Source: Thermoanaerobaculia bacterium (GTDB taxonomy: Bacteria; Acidobacteriota; Thermoanaerobaculia; Multivoradales; JAHZIX01). Taken from it: a stretch of DNA of 37,829 nt. Of the stretch, positions 8,708 to 24,860 are shown piece by piece. Within the stretch, counting starts at the first letter, position 1; every line of letters starts with the position of its first letter. The position numbers were made by a program, and so were the translations under genes. The notes beneath the pieces were generated by a model. It worked only from the letters and a program-made list of their open reading frames with translations, made no database searches and was not told the origin of the DNA. The stretch spans positions 1 through 37,829 of the forward strand of contig JALXFE010000547.1 in NCBI GenBank assembly GCA_027069135.1, written 5' to 3'.

Positions 8708-11569
8708 GTGCCGGGAATGACCGTCAGCACCTCGGCAGATCAAGCACCGGACCTTTCGACAGGGATCCTCTTTCCTCACGTCGTGTGCCGAGTCGCGGGC
8801 CTGCCGGTTTCCTGCTTGGAGCCTCTTCGGGCAGAGGAGAGCAGTCAGCTGTGGACGGAGATTCGAGGCCTCATCGGGCAGTTGGAGGGGCAGCGAGATC
8901 GATTGGTGCCCCGGATCTTCGAAGCCATTGGGAGGTTGGATGAGAGCTCCCAACGCCGTCCTCTGCTCAAGCTGAAACGGGATGTTCACAACCTCAGATC
9001 CCTGAGCACGGCGGCGATGGAGGCCGTCACCGCCCCTCGGCTCCGCCGAGATCTCGAGGTGTACCAGCGAGCTCTGGAGAGTCTCGAGGCGGCGCAGCGA
9101 CGATGCTCGCAGGTGTATCAAAGAGAGCTCGTCGCGGTCCGCTCGCGGTTCCAGCGCTTGGTCTTGAACGAGGACTTCCGTCGGGGTCTCCTGCTCTCCA
9201 GCAGGACCCTCGCGGCACAGCTGTCCCGCTACGTTCGGCTGGCCGCGGACCGTCCCGGTGCCAAGGGGCGACAGGTGGAACGCAGCCTCATGCGCTACCT
9301 ATCGCGTATGGTGATGAAGCCGACGCCCTTCGGTACCTTCTGCAGCCTCTTGGCGGGCCGTGTGGAGGAAGGGACACCCGCGGATCTCGGCATCGGCCAC
9401 CGGGCTCCTTCGAGGTTTTCCGGAGACCCCCAGCACAAGACGACCCACCTGCGGCTCAACAAGACCATCTACGGCCGCCTGCTCCCTTTGATGATCGCGC
9501 GGCCGGCGATCCGCCAGGAGCTTCGGGTCGAGCTCAACCCGACGCTTCGCGAAGAAGGGGATCGGTGGGTGTTCCTGGCGGCTGCCGGCGGCGCCGAGGT
9601 TTTCCAGCGATTGCCCCGAAATCCGGTCCTCGACCTCTTGGGTCAGCTCCTGACGAGGGGAGGCCCCAAGGCCCTGGCGGTCCTGATCTCGAGCCTCGGA
9701 TCCCATCCTTCGGTGGAGGCGAGCCCGGAGGAAGCGGAGGCCTTCGCCCTCAAGCTCATCGAGTTGGGCTTCCTGCGCTTCCGGGTCGGAATACCCGAGC
9801 AGGAAGTGGATTGGGATGCACCCCTGCGGGCTGTTCTCGAAGTCGTCGAGGATGAGCATGCGCGGCTCATCCTGCGCTTTCTTACACGATTGCGGGAAGC
9901 TGCCGAGCAGTATGAGGCCGCTGACCTCGATCGGCGCCGCGAGCTTCTCGAAGAGGCCGTGGCCCTGGTGCGAGGGATTTTCGAAGATTTGGGAGCCCCC
10001 ATCGCCGACAACGATCCCGCTCTGGGACAGCTGCCACCGTTCTTCGAGGATTCCGGGGGGGAGGCGCTCCTCCACCTCCAGGCGGCAGGATTCGAGGACG
10101 ATCTCCGGGATTACGTGCGCCGAGCTCTACCCCTCGCCAGTGCCCGGGGCGAGCAGGCGAATATGCGTTGTTTCTTCGATCGCTTCTACGGTGAGCGGGG
10201 GGAGGCCATGGTGCCCCTGCTTCGCTTCTACGAAGACTATTACCGCGAGCATTTCAAGGGTCATCTGGAGCGCCAACGCCCGGCGAAACAGACGGATGCG
10301 CCCACCCCGGCAGAGACGTCGGCAGAGCCCTACGACCTCTCCAATCCTTTCGGTTTGGACCTGATTACCCGGTTCCATCGGTCGAGGGTGTTCCTGGAGC
10401 GGCGAATTCAGGAGCGCTGGGCGGCAGCCTCGGGGGCCGAAGAGATCGAGCTCTCCCCGGGGGACCTGGACGCTGCGACGGCGAAGCTGCCACCGTTGAC
10501 GGATCGTTGCCGTTCGGTTTCGGTATTCGGTCACCTTCTGGAGGATTGGGGGCCGAAGGGGGAGCCGGGCCTGGTCACCGGGCATTGTCTTACGGGTTTC
10601 GGGAAGTATTTCTCGCGCTTTCTTTATCTCTTGCCGGACGAGGTGCAAGAAGCCCTTGTGGCGTCGAATCAGAGTCTTACGGATGAGTTGGTGACCGAAA
10701 TCTGCGGCGATGCGAGCTTCAACGCCAACCTGCACCCACCGCTTCTGCCTTGGGAGATGAGCTACCCGACGGGGGAGAGCGGGACGGCGGAAGAACAGAT
10801 CTTGGTCTCCGAGCTCTGGGTGGAGCCGGTCCCTCTCGATTCCCATCGCCTGCGGCTTCGGCAGGGGCCAAAGGGTCGGGAGGTCGTACCGGTCGATCTG
10901 GGGTTTCTCAATCCGCGGATGAGGCCACCGCTGTTTCAATTGTTGGCTCGGTTCTCGCCAGCGGCCAATTTTTCTTTGCCCTTGCCGGAGTTCTTGCCGT
11001 CGCCCCCCACGACTGCGGGAGCGTCTTCCCAGGTTCGCGTTCAGGTGCGGCCGAGGATCACCTACGGTCGGTTGGTTCTGGCCCGGCGACGATGGAAGGT
11101 CTTTTCCGCGGATCTACCCCGTCGCCTCGGTGCCGAGAGCGAGGCCGAGTTCTTCCTTCGTCTTCAGGAGTGGAGAGAGCAGGTCGGGCTTCCTTTGGAA
11201 GTCTTCGTCAAGGTCCAGGTTCTACCCCAAGGGCCGCCCGAGGAGCCCAAGCCGGAGGGCGAGGAGGAATCCGGGGAAGATGTGTCGAAGGGGAAGCCCC
11301 GGAAACCCCAACCCGAGAAACCCCAGCCCCAGAAATCCCAGCCCCAGATCCGGGAACACCTTTATAAACCCCAATATATCGATTTCTTCAATCCGATTCT
11401 GGCGGATCTCTTTAGCCGTCTGGGGGAGGGCCTTCCCGCCTTCATCGCCGTCTTTGAGGAATGTCTCCCGGCCAAGGGCCATAGGGTTCCGGCAGACGGG
11501 AAAGAGTACGCGACGGAGTTGGTGTTGCAGCTCGATTATCCGGAGAGCTCCGAGGGGGCTGCAAGATGA
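8708..11569 (+). CDS. Lanthipeptide dehydratase, glutamylation domain (split LanB, N-terminal part)
   Basis: The product has 953 residues. In class I lanthipeptide synthesis this domain uses glutamyl-tRNA to esterify Ser and Thr of the precursor. Family features: YLSRMVMKPTPFGTFCSL (about 198-216), LNKTIYGRLLPL, NANLHPPLLPWEM, DLGFLNPRMRPPLFQLLA, and PRITYGRLVLARRRWKVF near the C-terminus. The elimination domain normally fused to it is encoded by the next gene. At 953 residues it is longer than the usual N-terminal part; one addition is a Lys/Pro/Gln-rich insertion (about 855-885) between beta-rich segments. GTG at 8708 has GAGGA 7 bases upstream; an ATG at 8717 is an alternative. The 3' end overlaps the next gene by 4 bases (ATGA). 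Identification is by family motifs; catalytic residues were not mapped individually. Confidence 0.9.
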   Translation: MPGMTVSTSADQAPDLSTGILFPHVVCRVAGLPVSCLEPLRAEESSQLWTEIRGLIGQLEGQRDRLVPRIFEAIGRLDESSQRRPLLKLKRDVHNLRSLSTAAMEAVTAPRLRRDLEVYQRALESLEAAQRRCSQVYQRELVAVRSRFQRLVLNEDFRRGLLLSSRTLAAQLSRYVRLAADRPGAKGRQVERSLMRYLSRMVMKPTPFGTFCSLLAGRVEEGTPADLGIGHRAPSRFSGDPQHKTTHLRLNKTIYGRLLPLMIARPAIRQELRVELNPTLREEGDRWVFLAAAGGAEVFQRLPRNPVLDLLGQLLTRGGPKALAVLISSLGSHPSVEASPEEAEAFALKLIELGFLRFRVGIPEQEVDWDAPLRAVLEVVEDEHARLILRFLTRLREAAEQYEAADLDRRRELLEEAVALVRGIFEDLGAPIADNDPALGQLPPFFEDSGGEALLHLQAAGFEDDLRDYVRRALPLASARGEQANMRCFFDRFYGERGEAMVPLLRFYEDYYREHFKGHLERQRPAKQTDAPTPAETSAEPYDLSNPFGLDLITRFHRSRVFLERRIQERWAAASGAEEIELSPGDLDAATAKLPPLTDRCRSVSVFGHLLEDWGPKGEPGLVTGHCLTGFGKYFSRFLYLLPDEVQEALVASNQSLTDELVTEICGDASFNANLHPPLLPWEMSYPTGESGTAEEQILVSELWVEPVPLDSHRLRLRQGPKGREVVPVDLGFLNPRMRPPLFQLLARFSPAANFSLPLPEFLPSPPTTAGASSQVRVQVRPRITYGRLVLARRRWKVFSADLPRRLGAESEAEFFLRLQEWREQVGLPLEVFVKVQVLPQGPPEEPKPEGEEESGEDVSKGKPRKPQPEKPQPQKSQPQIREHLYKPQYIDFFNPILADLFSRLGEGLPAFIAVFEECLPAKGHRVPADGKEYATELVLQLDYPESSEGAAR

Positions 11570-12510
11570 AGGGAGCTCCCGAGGGCGGGTCCGGCGAGAG
11601 GGGTTGGTTGAGCGCTCACCTACATTTCGAGGGAGATCTCTACGGACCTCCGGCAGACGAGGTCCTGTGGCAGGTCGCGGAGCCCATGGTGCGCTCAGCG
11701 CTCCGGGAGCCTTGTGTGGACCGTTGGTTCTTTCTTCGCTACAACCAGCCTTCGAGCCATCTCCGGCTGCGCTTGGGGCTCACATCTACAGTGCATCTCG
11801 AAGCCGTCCGGGAGAGGATCGAAGCCGTTTTCGAAAGCCATCCGCAGGAATCCGGCAAGGCCGCCGTGACGGACTTGCGATGGGTGCCCTACGAGCCCGA
11901 GTGGGATCGCTACGGCGGGCCTTTCGGAGTCGCGTTGGCGGAGGATCTCTTCCATCGCTCGAGTGAGACGGCCCTCGCGTTGCTGCGCAAGGTGGCCGCG
12001 GACGACCGACCTACTCGGCTGGGCAAAGCCATGCTCGCCATGTTGGTGCTGATTCATGGCTACACACCCCAACGCCGTCGCGCCGCCGCTTTTTCTAGAT
12101 CCTACGGTTACGGCTACTTGCACTCCCTGGTTCCCGATCCCCAAGCTCAACAACGTTGGCTGGCCACCTTCGAGGCGGGCTTCGAACGCCAAGCCGGCGG
12201 ACTTTCGCAGTATCTGGAAGTGGCTTGGGAGGCTTTGGAAGACGGGGAGCCGATGACTCCCGAGCTAGATCTCTACCGAGAACAAATGGTGGCCCACGGG
12301 GCGCGCCTCCAGGCGGCGTGGGAACAGAAAAAGTTGAGCTCGGAGGGAGAGCAGTATCCGAGCTGGGAGGATTGCTTTCACCGAGTCGTCCCCGGCTATC
12401 TCCACATGATGAACAACCGCCTCGGGATCAGTCTTCAGGAAGAGTCCTACCTCTCGGTCCTGATTGACTGGACGCTCCGGCATCCCGAGACGATGAAACA
12501 GTTGATGTAG
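11566..12510 (+). CDS. Lanthipeptide dehydratase, elimination domain (SpaB_C-like, split LanB)
   Basis: The product has 314 residues. It matches the SpaB C-terminal / thiopeptide-type biosynthesis family: WLSAHLHFEGD at the start, then WFFLRYNQPSSHLRLRL (about 46-62), the signature of the domain that removes glutamate from glutamylated Ser/Thr to leave dehydroalanine or dehydrobutyrine. Later come WDRYGG and HMMNNRLGIS, also typical. It should work in trans with the preceding glutamylation protein, and the ATGA overlap with that gene would give equal amounts of both. Split dehydratases are known in some class I systems; as I recall, the pinensin cluster is one. The stop is followed by 72 bases and then the precursor gene. 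Confidence 0.88.
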   Translation: MKGAPEGGSGERGWLSAHLHFEGDLYGPPADEVLWQVAEPMVRSALREPCVDRWFFLRYNQPSSHLRLRLGLTSTVHLEAVRERIEAVFESHPQESGKAAVTDLRWVPYEPEWDRYGGPFGVALAEDLFHRSSETALALLRKVAADDRPTRLGKAMLAMLVLIHGYTPQRRRAAAFSRSYGYGYLHSLVPDPQAQQRWLATFEAGFERQAGGLSQYLEVAWEALEDGEPMTPELDLYREQMVAHGARLQAAWEQKKLSSEGEQYPSWEDCFHRVVPGYLHMMNNRLGISLQEESYLSVLIDWTLRHPETMKQLM

Positions 12511-12520
12511 AACGGTATTT

Positions 12521-12935
12521 CCCGAGGGAGGAGAGCCGATAGAAAGTATTGTTTAACCCCGACTTTTTGAAGGGAGAGATTCATGAAAAAAATGAAGCTC
12601 AGTCTCGATGATTTGAAAGTGGAGTCCTTCCAGACCACGCCGGAGGTTGCTGGCGAAGAAGGAACCGTCGTCGGCTACATCACCTGCGACCTGACCGTTT
12701 GTAACGAATGCGGTCCGGGCTGTGGTTCCACCCGACAGGCCAGCTGCAACGGTACCTGTGCCGCCAGCTGTAATGGCACCTGCGATCCCAGCTGCGGGGG
12801 TACTTGCTCTTCTACCTGCAGCGGTTGCGGTGGCAGCGGCGTGACCTGTTTGGGCTCCTGTAACACGGACTTCGCCTGCTTTATCTGTACGCGTTACCAG
12901 TGCTAGAGATCTGATAGATAGCTCCCTCCCTCGGG
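12521..12935. repeat. 11-base inverted repeat flanking the precursor gene
   Basis: CCCGAGGGAGG (12521-12531) and its exact complement CCTCCCTCGGG (12925-12935) bracket the precursor gene, one arm 52 bases before its start and the other 19 bases after its stop. The arms could pair in the transcript and isolate the small gene's message, or be chance in purine-rich DNA. Confidence 0.35.
12583..12906 (+). CDS. Class I lanthipeptide precursor (LanA-like, Cys-rich, pinensin-like leader)
   Basis: The product has 107 residues; a GAAGGGAGAG ribosome site precedes the ATG. Residues 1-31 form a leader with no Cys: MKKMKLSLDDLKVESFQTT, then EGTV. This resembles the leader of pinensin-like lanthipeptides (L-x-L-D-x-L-x-V-x-S-F-x-T). 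Residues 34-107 form a core with 17 Cys and 19 Ser/Thr, so nearly every dehydrated residue could find a thiol partner. Residues 54-79 are seven consecutive (S/T)-C-x-x units, Cys at 55, 59, 63, 67, 71, 75 and 79. The gene sits between the dehydratase and cyclase genes. The leader cleavage site and ring pattern cannot be read from the sequence; no GG or GA site is present, which fits cleavage by the cluster's subtilisin-like protease, not a C39 peptidase. Confidence 0.88.
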   Translation: MKKMKLSLDDLKVESFQTTPEVAGEEGTVVGYITCDLTVCNECGPGCGSTRQASCNGTCAASCNGTCDPSCGGTCSSTCSGCGGSGVTCLGSCNTDFACFICTRYQC

Positions 12936-12965
12936 GATTGTTTCGATAGGTCTTTCGGTTAAGCC

Positions 12966-15023
12966 ATGATACTGAGCCATGATGATGAGCCTCGGGAGTC
13001 AAGTGATTTGAAAGCCTCAGATTGTGTCCATGCGGCGTCTCGGATCGGCCATCGGGTTGCAGAGCAGGCCCGATGGCGAGGAGATCTGTGCACCTGGGAA
13101 ATCAAGGTCCTGGACTCAGGGCCGGGTCTTTCGACGGTAGGGAAGACCGCAGGGCCGGAGCTCTACCAAGGATCCTCGGGGATCTCCTGGTTCCTCGGAG
13201 AGCTTTTCGAGCGGACCGGAGAGGAGCCCTTCCGCCGAGGGGCCACCGGTGGGATTCTTCATGCGTTGGATGAAGCCGAGAATTTGCCGCCGGGGAGCTT
13301 TGGCTTTCATGGCGGAAGGGTCGGTATCGCCTGGGCTGCGGCGCGGCTGGCGAGGCTTCTCGAGAGACCGGAGCTCCTTGTGAGCTCCTGGACGATCCTC
13401 GAACCTCTGCGGGGGTCGGAAGAGCAGGACCAGGGCATTGACGTCATCAGCGGCGCCGCCGGCGCGATTCCAGCTCTTCTCGAGCTGGGAGAGCTGCTCG
13501 AACGGCCAGAGCCTGGGGAGATAGCCCGGGCTCTCGGGGACCGTCTGCTGCTCCTGGCGCAACAGGAGCCGGGTGGGTGGTCCTGGAATACCCTCCCGGG
13601 TACGTCGGTTCGCCATCTCCTGGGACTCGCCCACGGCACGGCGGGTATCGCTCTCGCCCTCCTGGAGTTGGCTCGGGCTACCGGCGAAGGCCGGTTTCTC
13701 TTCGCCGCCCAGATGGCCTTCCTGTACGAGAATCGGTTCTTCGACGAAAGGGTCTCGAATTGGCCGGATCTTCGGGACCAGCGCCTGGGCGAAGAGGTCC
13801 GCAGTGGTCGCCACGAGACCCTTCGGCAAGCGGTCCGAATCGGTTGGATGCCCCGATGTGAGACCCATTTCATGACCGCCTGGTGTCATGGATCACCGGG
13901 CATCGGGCTTTCGAGGCTGCGGGCTTATGAGCTCACGGGGCAGGAGCGCTATCGCCGTGATCTTCGCGCGGCGGTGGACTCGACCCTCGGCTCCATCCGA
14001 GGAGACGAATTACGAGCCGCAAACTTTTCTCTCTGCCACGGCACTGCGGGCAATTGCGAGCTTCCCCTGGCGGCTTGCCAGGTGCTCGGGGATCCTGTGC
14101 TTCGGGAGGCCTGTTTGGAGGCCGCGCAATATGGTTGGGAGACTTTTGGCAAGGATGGGGGGGGCTGGCCCTGCGGTACCCTCACCGGTGAGGCGGATCC
14201 CAGCCTGTTGATCGGTGAGGCGGGGATTGGAACCTACTTCTTACGTCTGGCGGATCCATCCCTGCCGTCACCCCTGTTGTTGCGTCCGAACCTCGCGCGG
14301 ATCGACCGGGAGGGCTTGGGCCCGGAGCTGCCGGGTTTTGAAGAATCCTTGCGGCAGGCGGAGGAGTTTTTTTTCGGCACCACCGCCGGTCTGTGGAGCC
14401 GGCTGCGACCGGATTGGAAGATCCCCCCGGAGCCCGGGGGCGAGGTGCCGCTGGTGGTGCCTCCGGTGGTTCACCGATATCGTGAGATGTGCCGTTTTCT
14501 GGAACACGCTGCCCCGTCGTCCAAGCTCCTGGAGGATGCCTTTCGAGTCGACCAGGAGCGCTATTTGTTGGCCTCGGCGGAATCGGATTTCACCCATGAC
14601 TTCGTCCGTGCCCTGGCGCGCTTTCGTTGGCAGGAGATCGATGTCCGGCAGGTTCGCTTTCGGCTCGCTTTCGGTGCAGCTCTGACCGAGACCCGTTGGG
14701 ATTGGCAGAGTTGGCCCGCCGAGGCCTCGGAGCCGCCAGAGGAGGAAGCCTACTTTCTTCTCCTTCGCCAGAGCGGCCAAGTGAGTGTGCGCCGCGTGGG
14801 GCCCTTCGCCTTTCTCCTGCTGGACTCGGTTCGGGGCCCAGCCCTATATTCTGAGATCCTCGAAGCGGTATCAGAAGCCTTGGAAGGGGCGGCTCCGGAC
14901 CCGGAAGCTTTGGAGGCCCAGGTCTTGCCTCAACTCCAGCAGCTCTATGAGATCGGGGCCTTCGACGTGGTCCTGCCCGAACAGGGCGCAAAAGAGATGG
15001 AAAGAGCAGTGGTCTCCGTATGA
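12966..15023 (+). CDS. LanC-type lanthionine cyclase with C-terminal extension
   Basis: The product has 685 residues. Residues 1 to about 440 form the LanC alpha-barrel that adds Cys thiols to dehydrated residues. Zinc ligands by comparison with NisC: Cys307 (WCHGSPG), Cys357 and His358 (LCHGTAGN). The acid/base residues correspond to Asp159 (DVISGAAG) and His223 (LAHGTAG). NisC-type enzymes end near residue 420; here about 240 further residues follow. Their last 80 (from RRVGPFAFLLLDSV to LQQLYEIGAFDVV) look like the winged-helix fold of PqqD-like RiPP recognition elements, which would bind a leader peptide; this is inference from pattern. The ATG at 12966 is the only in-frame one nearby; its ribosome site is weak. 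The stop overlaps the transporter start (ATGA). Confidence 0.88.
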   Translation: MILSHDDEPRESSDLKASDCVHAASRIGHRVAEQARWRGDLCTWEIKVLDSGPGLSTVGKTAGPELYQGSSGISWFLGELFERTGEEPFRRGATGGILHALDEAENLPPGSFGFHGGRVGIAWAAARLARLLERPELLVSSWTILEPLRGSEEQDQGIDVISGAAGAIPALLELGELLERPEPGEIARALGDRLLLLAQQEPGGWSWNTLPGTSVRHLLGLAHGTAGIALALLELARATGEGRFLFAAQMAFLYENRFFDERVSNWPDLRDQRLGEEVRSGRHETLRQAVRIGWMPRCETHFMTAWCHGSPGIGLSRLRAYELTGQERYRRDLRAAVDSTLGSIRGDELRAANFSLCHGTAGNCELPLAACQVLGDPVLREACLEAAQYGWETFGKDGGGWPCGTLTGEADPSLLIGEAGIGTYFLRLADPSLPSPLLLRPNLARIDREGLGPELPGFEESLRQAEEFFFGTTAGLWSRLRPDWKIPPEPGGEVPLVVPPVVHRYREMCRFLEHAAPSSKLLEDAFRVDQERYLLASAESDFTHDFVRALARFRWQEIDVRQVRFRLAFGAALTETRWDWQSWPAEASEPPEEEAYFLLLRQSGQVSVRRVGPFAFLLLDSVRGPALYSEILEAVSEALEGAAPDPEALEAQVLPQLQQLYEIGAFDVVLPEQGAKEMERAVVSV

Positions 15024-16837
15024 CTCCGTCCCCGCCACAAGAACGAATCCCCACGTTGCGGGAGGCTCTGCGCCAATTCCTCCGGCTGGTGCGACTGATC
15101 CGGCCCTATTGGGGAGATCTGTCCAAAGGGATCGTCCTGGCCCTTGTCCTGGGCTTGATGGGGATGATTCCCCCGCTCTTTACCAAGCTTCTCTTCGACG
15201 AGGTCTATCCGTCCGACAACGTCTCCCTGATGCATGTCTTGGTGGGGGCCATCCTGGCCTTCACCCTGGCCTCGACCCTCCTGGGATTGGTGAGAAGCAT
15301 CTTCTCCCTCTACGTGAGCAGTCGCCTCAACAGCGCGACACGCCTCTTTTTTTTCAATCACCTCCAGCATCTGAGGCTGGGATTTTTCGATCGGCATCGG
15401 GTCGGGGAGATCACCAGCCGGTTCCAGGACGTGGGGAGGGCTTTGGAGTCGATCCACCGGGTCTTCCAAACGATTTTCGTGCAGGGGATCTATCTCTTGC
15501 TGGTGCCTCCCATCCTCTTCGTCTTGGAGTGGCGCCTGGCGTTGGTGGCCTTGGTGAGCCTGCCGCTCTCCGTCCTGGCCACGGCCCTCTCGGGACCGGT
15601 GCTCCGACGCTCCTTTAAACGCAGCTCTGAAGCCTATGCGGATCTGAGTGCCTTCCAGGTGGAAGCGCTCAGCAATATCCGGACCTTCAAGACTATGGGG
15701 CTCGAGCCCTACGTCTACGGGCGAGCCAAGGATCTGGTCGAACATGCCATGGGCCAGCAGCAGCGAGCCGGGCGTCAGGCACAGAGCTTCGGGGCCCTCA
15801 ACGGCCTGCTGCGGGGCTTGAATATGGCGCTCTTCACCTGGTTGGGCTGGACTCTGATTCTCAGTCGCCAGATGACCTTGGGCGAGTTCCTGGCCTTCTC
15901 CGCCTATCTGGCCTATCTTTTCAATCCGCTGTCTCAGCTGGTTGAGCTTTTCTCCGACTTTCAGCAGTCGGCGGTCCATCTGGACCGCATGTTCGAGTAT
16001 CTGGACGAGCCTCCGGAGCAGGATCCGGCCCGGGTCTACGAAGCCCCGCGACCGATACGCCAACGCCTGCGAGGAGAGTTGAGCCTCGAGGGAGTAAGCT
16101 TTTCCTACGTGGCGGGGCAGAAGGTTCTCTGTAGCCTGGACGCGAGGTTCGAGGAGGGTTCCGTGACGGCTCTCGTGGGGGCGAGCGGCTCTGGCAAGAC
16201 GTCTCTCCTACGATTGCTCGCAGGCCTCGAGCGACCGCAGGAAGGGGTCGTTCGGGCCGACGGAAGCTCTCTGACGGTGTTGCCCCTCCACGAGCTACGC
16301 CAGCAGCTCGCCGTGGTCTGGCAGGAGGTCAGCCTGGTACAGGGCACCTTGTGGCAGAACCTCACTCTCGGTGGCTTGGACGCAGACCGCCCGGAAGTGG
16401 ATCGCATCTGCCGCCTGTGTGGTCTGGAATCTGTGCTCCGGGCGCTGCCCCAGGGCTACGAAACGCCGGTGGCGGAATGGGGCTCGAGTCTTTCCGCCGG
16501 CCAACGCCAGCGGGTCGCGCTCGCTCGGGCACTCCTGCGCAAGGCGCCGATCCTGCTGCTGGATGAGGCGACGGCGAATATCGACGTCGCCACCGAGATG
16601 GAAATTCTCCGGGGGATGTTCCAAGAGCTGCGCGGCCGCACGGTAATCTTTGCCACCCACCGCCTGGCGACGGCGGCCCTGGCGGATCAGGTCTGCGTCC
16701 TGGTCGAAGGGCGTCTCGAGGGATTCGGTGGTCACGAAGACCTTTTGGACAGCTGCCCGGCGTATCGGCAAATGCACGGAGCCGCGTCGCCTCCCCGGTT
16801 GGTGAGCGTCGCGGCGGCGGGATCGAAAGAGGGGTGA
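15020..16837 (+). CDS. ABC exporter, fused membrane and ATPase domains (LanT-like)
   Basis: The product has 605 residues. Residues about 20-320 hold six membrane helices of the type 1 exporter fold, with FFDRHRVGEITSRFQD as the usual first intracellular coupling segment. The ATPase domain (about 355-600) has Walker A GASGSGKTS, signature LSAGQRQRVALARAL, Walker B ILLLDEATANID and the switch His in FATHRLAT. There is no N-terminal C39 peptidase, so it should export the modified peptide without cutting the leader; the nearby S8 protease would do that. It starts inside the LanC stop codon and ends overlapping the region upstream of the adaptor gene. Export of the lanthipeptide is inferred from position. 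Confidence 0.9.
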   Translation: MTPSPPQERIPTLREALRQFLRLVRLIRPYWGDLSKGIVLALVLGLMGMIPPLFTKLLFDEVYPSDNVSLMHVLVGAILAFTLASTLLGLVRSIFSLYVSSRLNSATRLFFFNHLQHLRLGFFDRHRVGEITSRFQDVGRALESIHRVFQTIFVQGIYLLLVPPILFVLEWRLALVALVSLPLSVLATALSGPVLRRSFKRSSEAYADLSAFQVEALSNIRTFKTMGLEPYVYGRAKDLVEHAMGQQQRAGRQAQSFGALNGLLRGLNMALFTWLGWTLILSRQMTLGEFLAFSAYLAYLFNPLSQLVELFSDFQQSAVHLDRMFEYLDEPPEQDPARVYEAPRPIRQRLRGELSLEGVSFSYVAGQKVLCSLDARFEEGSVTALVGASGSGKTSLLRLLAGLERPQEGVVRADGSSLTVLPLHELRQQLAVVWQEVSLVQGTLWQNLTLGGLDADRPEVDRICRLCGLESVLRALPQGYETPVAEWGSSLSAGQRQRVALARALLRKAPILLLDEATANIDVATEMEILRGMFQELRGRTVIFATHRLATAALADQVCVLVEGRLEGFGGHEDLLDSCPAYRQMHGAASPPRLVSVAAAGSKEG

Positions 16838-16842
16838 TCTCG

Positions 16843-17358
16843 ATGTTTCGATTGCCCAATCTCATGGAGGAGCGCTCCTGGGGAGCCTGGTTGTCGCACC
16901 ATGTGGGGCTGGTTTTTGTCGGCATGGGCGTTGTTTTGGCGAGCCTCGGGGCTTTGATTCTGGGCCTCGTGGAGCTTGAAATCACGGTGGCCGCACAAGG
17001 GGTCCTGGAGGAGGTGGACGGTGAGTGGATCGCCTCCCTCGAGGTTCCTCGGCTTTCGGAAGCGGAGCTTTCCGTCGGACAGGAGCTCCTGATCCGGTCC
17101 CTGGAGGCCGGTCCCCGGCGGGAGGGGGCACTGCGGGGAACCGTCCGGTCCGTCGGTAGATCGCTCCGGAGGGAAACCGAACCGACCGGGCCGGAATTTG
17201 TGCATTTGACGGTCCTCGTCCATCGCTTGCCGGAGACCGTGGCCCCCTCTGCTGGGAAAAGCCCGGTTGCCGGCCGTTTGGTGATCGGCAAACAATCTGC
17301 AGGCCAGGCGCTGCTGCGGGGTTTTCGCCGCCAAGGGCCGGGAGGGGACGGCCTTTGA
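16843..17358 (+). CDS. Short single-span membrane protein, reduced HlyD-like adaptor
   Basis: The product has 171 residues. One membrane helix (about 20-46, VGLVFVGMGVVLASLGALIL) is followed by a short periplasmic part. The stretch after the helix (ITVAAQGVLEEVDGEWIASLEVP, continuing LSVGQELLIRS) has the pattern of the beta-barrel/lipoyl half-motif of HlyD-type adaptors of ABC exporters, but the long coiled-coil hairpin of that family is absent. It would therefore be a minimal adaptor or a different exporter partner. ATG at 16843 has GAGGGG 8 bases upstream; a GTG at 16834 overlapping the transporter stop is possible. It is coupled to the next gene through a TTGA overlap. Family assignment is tentative. 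Confidence 0.65.
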   Translation: MFRLPNLMEERSWGAWLSHHVGLVFVGMGVVLASLGALILGLVELEITVAAQGVLEEVDGEWIASLEVPRLSEAELSVGQELLIRSLEAGPRREGALRGTVRSVGRSLRRETEPTGPEFVHLTVLVHRLPETVAPSAGKSPVAGRLVIGKQSAGQALLRGFRRQGPGGDGL

Positions 17359-18167
17359 CCGAAACCCCTCTTCCTTCCATCGATAGGCCGGGGTGGCTAC
17401 ACGGGGCGCTCGGCGACGCGACGGGCCGCGGTGTACGCATCGCGGTGATCGATAGTGGCAGGGATCCGCGTTGGAAGGATCGGCGCATCCTGCCGGGCGT
17501 CGGCCTGGCGACTCCCGAACGCCCTTTTGAATTCTTTCGATCCGAGGACGATGCGGACCGCCTGGGGCATGGCACAGCCTGTATCGACGTCATCCTGGGT
17601 CTGGCGCCGGGGGTGGAAATCTTTCCCATCCGAGTGTTCGGAAATCGTCTCGAAACTTCGCCAGACCTTCTCCTGCGGGCTCTCGAAGCTGCTTTGGAAG
17701 CGCAGGCACAGATCGTCAACCTGAGCCTCGGGACGCAGGTACGCAAGGCTCATAATTCTCTTTTCGAGGCCACGAAGGTCACCGATAGCTTCGGCATGCT
17801 GATGGTCGCGGCCTTGCCGGAGCCCTCCGCCCCGAGCTTTCCCGGCTCCTTTCCCCATGTCCTGGGGGTTGCGTCCGGGCGGTTTCCTAATGTCTTCGAC
17901 TATCTCTATCGGCAGGAAGGCCCGGCCGAGTGCATGGCCCCGGGAGAGCGGGAGGTGCGATGGCTGGGCGGGGAGCGTCGCATCTCTGCCGGTTCGAGCC
18001 TCGCCGCCCCCCATATCTCGGCCCTACTGGCCCTTTTCTTGGAGACACACCCAGGAGCGGATCAGGCGGCAGCGCGGGAGTTTTTGGGGCTCTATTCGCT
18101 GGAGAGACGGTTGGGAGTGGAGGCTCCGGTCGTCCCTGGAGCCGCCCCGGGTGGGAACGTTCTTTGA
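17355..18167 (+). CDS. Subtilisin-like (S8) serine protease, probable leader peptidase
   Basis: The product has 270 residues. The S8 triad is visible: Asp33 (IAVIDSG), His72 (GHGTAC) and Ser215 (GSSLAAPH). The strand motif NLSLG (122-126) is also present. There is no signal peptide and no pro-region, so the enzyme should be cytosolic and able to cut the modified precursor's leader, as LanP enzymes do. The oxyanion-hole Asn, normally in a VAAAGN-like motif, appears to be replaced: the equivalent segment reads VAALPE (151-156). The start is TTG at 17355, overlapping the preceding stop (TTGA); no in-frame ATG exists before the catalytic core. It is the last gene of the coupled cluster. Confidence 0.85.
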   Translation: MTETPLPSIDRPGWLHGALGDATGRGVRIAVIDSGRDPRWKDRRILPGVGLATPERPFEFFRSEDDADRLGHGTACIDVILGLAPGVEIFPIRVFGNRLETSPDLLLRALEAALEAQAQIVNLSLGTQVRKAHNSLFEATKVTDSFGMLMVAALPEPSAPSFPGSFPHVLGVASGRFPNVFDYLYRQEGPAECMAPGEREVRWLGGERRISAGSSLAAPHISALLALFLETHPGADQAAAREFLGLYSLERRLGVEAPVVPGAAPGGNVL

Positions 18168-18320
18168 AGACGAGCCGTTCCTCCTCCGAGTAGAAATATG
18201 GTCTGCAGGGAAGAGCCTCGACTCGGGTACTGGGAGTTGGCGATCTGGAGAGTCGCCTTCGGGCCCGCTAGACTCAGCCGAAGGAAATCGCGCTTCCCAG
18301 GCAGGATAAGGATTCCAACT

Positions 18321-22315: not shown

Positions 22316-24790
22316 ATGAGTGATTGTTGTAGCGGTTCCGGGGGCGTGACCTCAACCAAGGCCGAGGCGCCACCTCCGGTGGTAGATCCGATCTGTGGGA
22401 TGACGGTGGACCCGAAAACGGCGAAGTATCGCACGGAGCATAAGGGGGAGATTTTCTATTTCTGCTGCGACGGGTGCCGGAAGCGCTTCGAAGCAGATCC
22501 GGAAGGGGTGTTGGGAAAGGCTGAAGCGCCTTCTTGCTGCGGTGGAGTCGCCGAAGCTCCGGTGGCGGGGCCGGGCCCTTATGTCTGTCCCATGTGCCCG
22601 GAGGTCTTGGAAGAAAAGCCGGTGCCTTGCCCGAAATGCGGTATGGCGCTTCAGCCGGCGGCACCGGTGGCACCTCGGCGGAAGGTCGAGTACACCTGCC
22701 CGATGCATCCGGAAGTCGTGCAGGACGGCCCCGGGGCCTGCCCGAAATGCGGCATGGCCTTGGAGCCCCGGACCGTGACTCTGGAAGAAGAGGAAGATCC
22801 GGAGCTCGTGAGCATGACCCGGCGGTTCTGGGGCAGCGTGGCGTTGACGGTTCCGCTCCTGGCCCTCGCCATGGGGGAGTTGATCCCCGGAGTCTCCTTT
22901 GAGGGCTGGATTTCGCCGAGAGCCAACCCCTTGATCCAGCTTCTCTTGGCGACACCGGTGGTGTTGTGGGCGGGTTGGCCCTTCTTTCAAAGGGGTTGGG
23001 CCTCCCTCGTTCACCGTAGCCTCAACATGTTCACGCTCATCGCCGTGGGGACGGGAGCGGCCTACGGATTCAGCGTTTTCGCCACCCTGATGCCCGGCTG
23101 GTTGCCGAAATCGGCTCTGGGGATGGGGGGGACGGTGCCGCTGTACTTCGAAGCGGCGGCGGTGATCATCACCTTGGTGTTGCTCGGGCAGATTCTCGAG
23201 TTGCGGGCGCGGGCGAGGACCGGTCAGGCGGTGCGGGAGCTGCTGGAACTGGCACCGCCGACCGCACGGCGGTTGGGGGACGACGGTAGCGAAGAAGAAG
23301 TTCCCCTGGAGCTGATTCATCCCGGAGACCGTTTGCGCGTCCGCCCGGGAGAGAAAGTGCCGGTGGACGGGATGGTGCTCGAGGGTACCAGCTCGGTGGA
23401 TGAGTCGATGATGACGGGGGAATCCGAGCCGGTCTCCAAGGTGACCGGTGATTCCGTCACCGGCGGCACGGTCAACGGCGCGGGAGCTTTGATCCTGGAA
23501 GCCCAGCGGGTGGGGGAGGACACACTCCTCTCCCAGATCGTTCGCCTCGTCGCTTCGGCCCAGCGCAGCCGGGCACCCATCCAGCGATTGGCAGATCGGG
23601 TGTCCGCCTACTTTGTCCCGGCGGTGATCTTGGCGGCGATCCTGGCTTTCGGGTTTTGGTGGTGGCTCGGGCCGGAGCCCTCCCTGAGTCACGCTCTCTT
23701 GGTAGCGGTATCTGTCCTCATCGTCGCCTGCCCTTGCGCCTTGGGTTTGGCGACACCCATGGCCATCATGGTAGCGACGGGCCGGGGCGCCCGGTCGGGG
23801 GTTTTGGCGCGGGATGCAGAGGCGTTGGAAGTCTTGGCTCAGGCCGACGTTCTATTGGTCGACAAGACGGGAACCTTGACCGAGGGGCGCCCCAAAGTGG
23901 TGGCGGTGGAGGCCCAGCCCGGGGTCGACGGGCAAGAGCTGCTGCGACGGGCCGCGGCGGTGGAGCGATCCAGCGAGCATCCCCTGGCGGGGGCGGTCGT
24001 TCAGGAGGCGGAGCAGCGGGGCCTACAGATACCCCAGGTCCAGGAGTTTCGTTCGGTCACCGGCCTCGGCGTCGCGGGCCAGGTGGAAGGTAGCACCGTG
24101 GCTGTCGGGAACCGGCGCTTCCTCGAGGAAGAGAGCGTTGCGGGGTTGCCGCAGGAGCTCGAAGAGTCGCCTTCCGCCGGTAGCGCCGTTCTGGTGGCGG
24201 TGGACGGGACATTCTGGGGCCAGATGCGGGTAGAGGATCCCATCAAGAGCGACGCCGCGGAGGCTTTGGCCGTCCTGCGGGACGAAGGGATGAAAGTTGT
24301 GATGGTGACCGGAGACCGTCGCTCCACAGCAAAGGCCGTGGCGGAGGCGTTGGGGATCGGCGAGATCGAGGCGGAGGTGCTGCCGGCAGATAAGGAAGCC
24401 GTGGTGCAGCGCTGGCAGCGATCCGGGCACCGGGTCGCGATGGCCGGCGATGGCGTCAACGACGCCCCGGCCCTGGCCCGGGCCGATGTGGGAATCGCCA
24501 TGGGGACCGGAACGGATATCGCCATCGAAAGCGCTGGCATCACGCTGGTCAAGGGAGACCTGCTAGGGGTGGTTCGGGCTCGGAAGCTGAGCCGGGCGAC
24601 GTTGAAGAACATCCGCCAGAATCTCCTTTTCGCCTTCTTGTACAACGCTCTCGGCGTGCCGGTGGCGGCGGGGTTGCTCTATCCTTTCTTTGGGTGGCTC
24701 CTTTCGCCGATGCTCGCCAGCGCAGCGATGAGCCTGTCTTCGGTCTCCGTCATTGGCAACGCCCTACGCTTGAGAAGGCTCTCTCTCTAG
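22316..24790 (+). CDS. copA: Cu(I)-transporting P1B-type ATPase with YHS and HMBD N-terminal domains
   Basis: The product has 824 residues. It pumps Cu(I) from the cytosol. N-terminal metal sites: a Cys-rich start (SDCCSGS), a YHS domain (about 24-65, [10 protein letters not shown] and [12 protein letters not shown]), then two heavy-metal-binding modules (about 89-120 and 125-152). The second has the standard CPMHPEV plus CPKCGMAL, the first has Cys in place of His (CPMCPEV). The ATPase core has the membrane CPC motif (472-474), phosphorylation motif DKTGTLTEG (Asp516), TGES in the actuator domain and [10 protein letters not shown] at the hinge. The C-terminal helix ends [15 protein letters not shown], as in Cu(I)-ATPases. 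It lacks the usual ferredoxin-like HMA domains. A GAGGAAA ribosome site precedes the ATG, and the gene forms an operon with csoR. Confidence 0.9.
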
Positions 24791-24860
24791 TCATGTGCGT
24801 GCTAAGATCCGCGAAAATTCTGGATCGAGCACGCGTTCACTGCCGTTGAGGGGGAGAATC

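Follow-up and report, generated by a model that had tools for sequence, protein, structure and literature searches.

The window analysed here, the whole stretch of 37,829 bases, is one entire contig of a 7.17 Mb MAG (97.45% complete). Seven plus-strand ORFs are open between positions 8708 and 18167, with coordinates that an ORF check found to be as first read (Table 1); they overlap by 4 bases at four junctions (11566, 15020, 16834 and 17355), which settles the "three or four" of the first-pass annotation, and GC3 is uniform across the operon genes. The BNR-repeat gene that follows 3' of the operon at 18198 has no counterpart in any of the six loci from the same taxonomic order, and was left out of the operon. 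The seven ORFs, their family matches and their conservation as one unit bear out the original description of a compact seven-gene class I lanthipeptide system. Elsewhere in the window, a heavy-metal P-type ATPase gene with YHS and HMBD domains lies at 22316-24790 and is adjoined at 24795 by a glutamate-cysteine ligase-like gene; two more LanC-domain genes occur outside it in the same genome (G000:C182:10397-11470 and 90900-91970).

Table 1. Features of the operon, in positions of the window.
Feature	Position	Strand	Description	Matches
lanB_N	8708..11569	+	953 aa, split LanB, predicted tRNA-dependent glutamylation enzyme	PF04738 4.6e-50
lanB_C	11566..12510	+	314 aa, split LanB, predicted glutamate elimination enzyme	PF14028 1.6e-39
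lanA	12583..12906	+	precursor; leader MKKMKLSLDDLKVESF...EGTVVG; Cys-rich 76-aa core	NF038180 24.3 bits
GTVVG motif, LanA residues 27-31	12661..12675	+	conserved; expected leader/core boundary	
lanC, cyclase domain	12966..14264	+	LanM-like	PF05147 1.2e-48; TIGR03897 2.8e-72
lanC, C-terminal extension	14265..15023	+	DUF2063-like helical part and RRE winged helix, MNIO-partner fold (predicted model)	
ABC exporter	15020..16837	+	TMD and NBD, no C39 peptidase	PF00664, PF00005; PF03412 absent
Membrane-fusion protein (MFP)	16834..17358	+	shortened, HlyD-type; TM anchor and barrel start	
S8 protease	17355..18167	+		PF00082 5.6e-13; NF049966 (QhpE) 116 bits

The LanB glutamylation and elimination domains that mark a class I system are both present above cut-off in two separate ORFs (PF04738 and PF14028), as expected from the split LanB of 953 + 314 residues proposed at first reading. 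Solved relatives are TbtB for LanB_N (2.5e-23) and TsrE and MibB for LanB_C, and the two genes adjoin each other in related loci too. The split is not essential, since at one locus (L149:9438-12980) both LanB parts are joined in a single 1,180-residue ORF within an operon that is otherwise of the S8 type. Pinensin has a split LanB (PMC7268733), and in the SapT system LanB is likewise found in two proteins (PMC9011353), a likeness drawn on that feature alone.

LanA matches the NCBIfam pinensin leader model NF038180 with 24.3 bits where the cut-off is 24, so that the pinensin-like leader suggested from the sequence passes, but marginally; the corresponding score in the reference locus L098/L102 is 49.7 bits, and all five Thermoanaerobaculia precursors match the model. 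The leader ends in GTVVG where the pinensin type has GG, and the combination of a double-Gly leader with C39 is not found in the window. Cleavage would be expected at or directly after GTVVG. The motif G[TS][VI]x[GA] stands at the leader end in 26 of 31 leaders from loci with an S8 gene and in 0 of 23 from GG-type loci (Fisher, p 9e-11, or about 1e-10, with related precursors counted singly, a value that overstates the evidence because precursors within one locus are not independent). These counts were checked by hand, since a small number of ORFs in the automatic listing were clearly no precursors, and they leave five precursors in S8 loci that lack the motif. Two other precursor arrangements were seen: at L155:1132-15875 more than 12 GG-type pinensin-leader precursors are arrayed near a single gene for an extended LanC, and at L011:11829-11990 a short ORF whose leader is NHLP-like (ELVDVSGG) lies 3' of the S8 gene in a locus without ABC and MFP genes.

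When the LanC extension was used as the query, a match was found in 5 of the 148 genomes of the class (Thermoanaerobaculia, to which the window most likely belongs), and a single-protein scan of the genome contigs gave no matches; a scan with a full-LanC profile revealed more loci, in Thermoanaerobaculia, Gemmatimonadota, Ignavibacteria and Bacteroidota. Per-gene HMMs were then run on the flanks of these loci and on a second locus set from class-wide searches. An S8 gene lies beside the LanB/LanC set in 16 loci, the window included, 15 of them with strong matches and one (L152) with a weak S8 match only (8e-21) and no GTVxG; these S8-type operons come from three phyla, represented by Thermoanaerobaculia, Gemmatimonadota and Ignavibacteria. 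The usual unit consists of lanB, lanA, extended lanC, ABC, MFP and S8 genes in varying order, with L071 and L152 reaching contig ends and L023 beginning after lanB. Homologues of the adaptor (MFP) and of the protease do co-occur with such LanB/LanC genes, so the case against a single system that the first-pass annotation had allowed for, in which they would never do so, falls away; the set recurs in another 15 loci with an S8 gene, which shows that it is not a chance assembly. None of the five GG-type Bacteroidota loci (L090, L102, L103, L153 and L155) has an S8 gene nearby. Of the other loci without S8, several (L014, L016, L025, L143, L144, L146 and L148) are cut by contig ends, L015 consists of lanC alone, and L054/L147 show another arrangement of ABC, extended LanC and an erythromycin-esterase-like gene. 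No regulator or immunity gene recurs among the neighbouring genes scanned, and the missing clustered immunity, which the first-pass annotation took as a possible sign of a different role, does not show what the peptide does; it may act as an antibiotic, as a signal or in a structural capacity.

Further gene associations came to light in the same survey. In two Ignavibacteria operons a nucleotidyltransferase-like ORF lies immediately 3' of lanC (L020:7768-8487 and L022:12289-12996). Stand-alone LanC loci (L027-L093, e.g. L027:7834-11284) form a widespread class-V-like cassette, with an upstream HopA1-family protein in 51 of 62, an APH-like kinase in 49 and a third ORF without a Pfam hit that is common to 33; domains were checked in L027 and L036.

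The open-access literature searched, a scope outside which the original pinensin paper falls, does not describe this gene combination, and the Thermoanaerobaculia cluster of a paper on coral Acidobacteriota belongs to a different system, being class II with a GMC oxidoreductase. The set as a whole is thus seemingly undescribed, as first proposed. That every odd part of it is new is not supported: the adaptor is a degenerate MFP, and other clusters, those with pinensin leaders, share the extension of LanC.

LanC itself is a separate protein with a Cys-Cys-His zinc site, as in class I systems: PF05147 is matched, and C307, C357 and H358 are invariant in the alignment and correspond by motif to the LanC zinc ligands. 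TIGR03897 covers the cyclase part but scores below its own cut-off, and the fold matches of this part are CuvL, LanCL1, LicM2 and NisC; Bacteroidetes LanCs are related to LanM cyclases (PMC7268733). The C-terminal extension was modelled with AF2 from 17 sequences (pLDDT 84.6). In a fold search the model matches TglI (Z 13.1 and rmsd 5.8 over 199 residues) and NGO1945 (Z 12.5 and rmsd 4.8 over 192 residues), the high full-length rmsd meaning that the two subdomains are probably placed somewhat differently; the next matches have Z of about 7, and further down come the RRE domains of TbiB1 (Z 6.6), PqqD, MibB and TbtB, with RRE matches spanning 84-94 residues. The fold was also compared by Foldseek. 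Signals in the sequence of the extension are weak, with NGO1945_C (1.2e-4) and PF22106 below cut-off and PqqD matched in 3 of the 17 sequences, and the profile of the extension, when searched against PDB sequences, returned chance matches only. The predicted model contains the DUF2063-like helical domain and RRE fold of MNIO partners, with a sequence signature below cut-off.

The MNIO partners (TglI and NGO1945/DUF2063; PME-type 1 and 2, PMC12452194) share the overall fold of this extension but differ in setting, since the module is here fused to LanC and no MNIO is encoded alongside it. A search for PF05114 found no MNIO in the window's genome (97.45% complete) with which the extension could work; 15 further genomes were searched, and 12 of these have none either.

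The first-pass annotation was right that LanC is extended. The extension is not peculiar to this gene set, as Bacteroidota pinensin-leader clusters have it too. The LanCs of pinensin-leader loci carry an extension of 200-240 residues that matches the window-type profile weakly, along most of its length in L102 (16.4 bits) and chiefly in the RRE part in L103 (14.6 bits), and the extensions of L090, L153 and L155 match as well; the extension thus looks old in this LanC family and not specific to the window. The module is also found away from LanC. In two Gemmatimonadota genomes with the full system (G450 and G681) it occurs on a weakly Toprim-like protein without a LanC match, which adjoins three precursors with the same pinensin-type leader and a GTVxG motif. 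Loci of this kind, a Toprim-RRE-type fusion with three pinensin-leader precursors, were seen at L150:7889-10659 and L151:7488-10612, away from the main operon of the same genome.

Taken from the model, the extension is probably a leader-recognition module, and the Toprim-like fusion beside precursors with the same leader is the best indirect support for leader binding by it. Classical LanC cyclases, NisC among them, are not known to contain a domain for binding the leader. On the competing reading leader binding is not the function of the extension, which would have a structural role or dock a partner and simply retain the MNIO-partner fold; this reading draws on the weak sequence likeness to PqqD and NGO1945_C, on the existence of LanC enzymes without an extension, and on the fact that DUF2063-associated RREs have no known recognition motif (PMC12710340); it is clearly the less probable of the two, given that the model matches the RRE fold and that the module recurs on an ORF without LanC next to precursors with the same leader.

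The exporter fits its first description as an ABC protein without a peptidase, having PF00664 and PF00005 and no PF03412. Of the exporters compared, those of L090, L102 and L103 contain C39, whereas the window's and that of L020 do not. In the tree the operon exporters form one clade (100/100) whose branching tracks the host phyla, with those of the window and L017 as sisters (99/98). The "tiny adaptor" of the first-pass annotation turned out to be a shortened HlyD-type MFP: its 174 residues match the profile of the full-length operon MFP at 21.8 bits over residues 3-70 only, and it has no Pfam hit and no recognised lipoyl or hairpin domain. The lipoyl/barrel-sandwich domain that characterises HlyD, not found in the window, is present in L018 and L022, and the MFP is full length in most relatives. 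In L019 a PRMT-like methyltransferase lies between ABC and MFP (L019:14455-15873).

The window, L017 and L024 have in common long cores of 76-81 residues with 17-18 Cys (76 residues with 17 Cys and 19 Ser+Thr in the window), and those of L017 and L024 contain STC repeats. The near equality of Ser+Thr and Cys in such cores would fit extensive thioether formation. It is conceivable, if unlikely, that this long-core branch does not export an antibiotic and instead retains its product, in the periplasm or inside the cell, as a polypeptide with thioether links that has a structural or metal-handling function. The nature of the cores is consistent with such a fate, as are the shortening of the MFP in the window and its further shrinkage in L017 (to about 90 residues), the lack in the window of a second ABC exporter matching the operon ABC profile, and L024, where S8 is present but ABC and MFP were not found within the stretch; the ABC gene is nevertheless intact in the window and in L017, and an MFP or TolC could come in trans.

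The S8 protease called from the sequence is confirmed by PF00082 (5.6e-13). By inspection it has neither a signal peptide nor a pro-domain, and its triad D33/H72/S215 is invariant in the alignment, in which N122 is also kept. The best NCBIfam model is QhpE (NF049966), matched at 116.3 bits, below the equivalog cut-off of 165, and by all five Thermoanaerobaculia S8 proteins; in a tree that took in 10 further S8 proteins, the operon S8s fall together with QhpE (support 95/92.7), although the operon group itself is unresolved. Judged by these comparisons, QhpE is the nearest characterised relative of the window's S8. QhpE cuts off a 28-residue leader in the cytoplasm, and ABC export follows (PMC7876137). 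It resembles the window's enzyme in being a small cytosolic S8 beside a peptidase-less ABC exporter with a thioether-crosslinked peptide as its substrate, but the thioethers of QhpC are the work of the radical SAM enzyme QhpD and not of LanB/LanC, and the window's S8 adjoins lan genes, with no qhpC or qhpD as neighbours. Because the window's exporter falls outside the QhpF clade, a joint origin of S8 and ABC from a qhp operon is unsupported. An S8 gene on a Gemmatirosa kalamazoonensis plasmid, considered as marking a cultured host of the system, has surroundings without lan genes. That the operon S8 is not the leader peptidase, and instead clears misfolded precursor or has some other substrate, is improbable: GTVxG is missing from some precursors in S8 loci, but the presence of S8, the loss of C39 and the change of GG coincide, and QhpE, the closest relative that has been characterised, removes a leader.

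The window's system and the Bacteroidota pinensin type (precursor family I 17, PMC7268733) are alike in the NF038180 leader, the split LanB, the LanM-related LanC and, as this analysis adds, a related extension on LanC, about 200-240 aa long. They differ in processing: the Bacteroidota loci have a C39-peptidase ABC exporter, a GG leader end and no S8 nearby, whereas the window has S8, GTVxG and a peptidase-less ABC. GG leaders and C39 go with many Bacteroidetes class I precursors and are a frequent, not a universal, mark (PMC7268733). The gene set, the domain identities, their co-occurrence, the association of motif and protease and the fold model are what sequence and comparison show. By its genes, the operon belongs to the pinensin-type class I lanthipeptide family, in which it forms a divergent branch, a variant with swapped processing, and we think it likely that this branch replaced C39/double-Gly processing with a route through a QhpE-like S8 and a peptidase-less ABC.

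We infer all biochemical steps of this route, together with their order, the cut site and the product. LanB_N and LanB_C would dehydrate Ser and Thr of LanA, using glutamyl-tRNA; LanC, using its fused DUF2063/RRE-like module to grip the leader, would add Cys to the dehydro residues to form thioethers; the QhpE-like cytosolic S8 would cut the leader at the conserved GTVxG; and the peptidase-less ABC would export the leaderless product, with an MFP that is full length in most relatives and eroded in the window. A more speculative extension, doubtful as a whole, is that the MNIO-partner module is a portable leader-recognition unit adopted without the iron oxidase by pinensin-type LanC and a Toprim-like enzyme, and that the product of the long-core branch is a thioether-laddered polypeptide of the periplasm and not a secreted antibiotic.

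Together, these findings bring Acidobacteriota, Gemmatimonadota and Ignavibacteria into the range of pinensin-type chemistry, and provide, in S8 and GTVxG in place of C39 and GG, a usable signature for mining. Further, a cyclase with an MNIO-partner-like RRE would make leader recognition during cyclisation directly testable.
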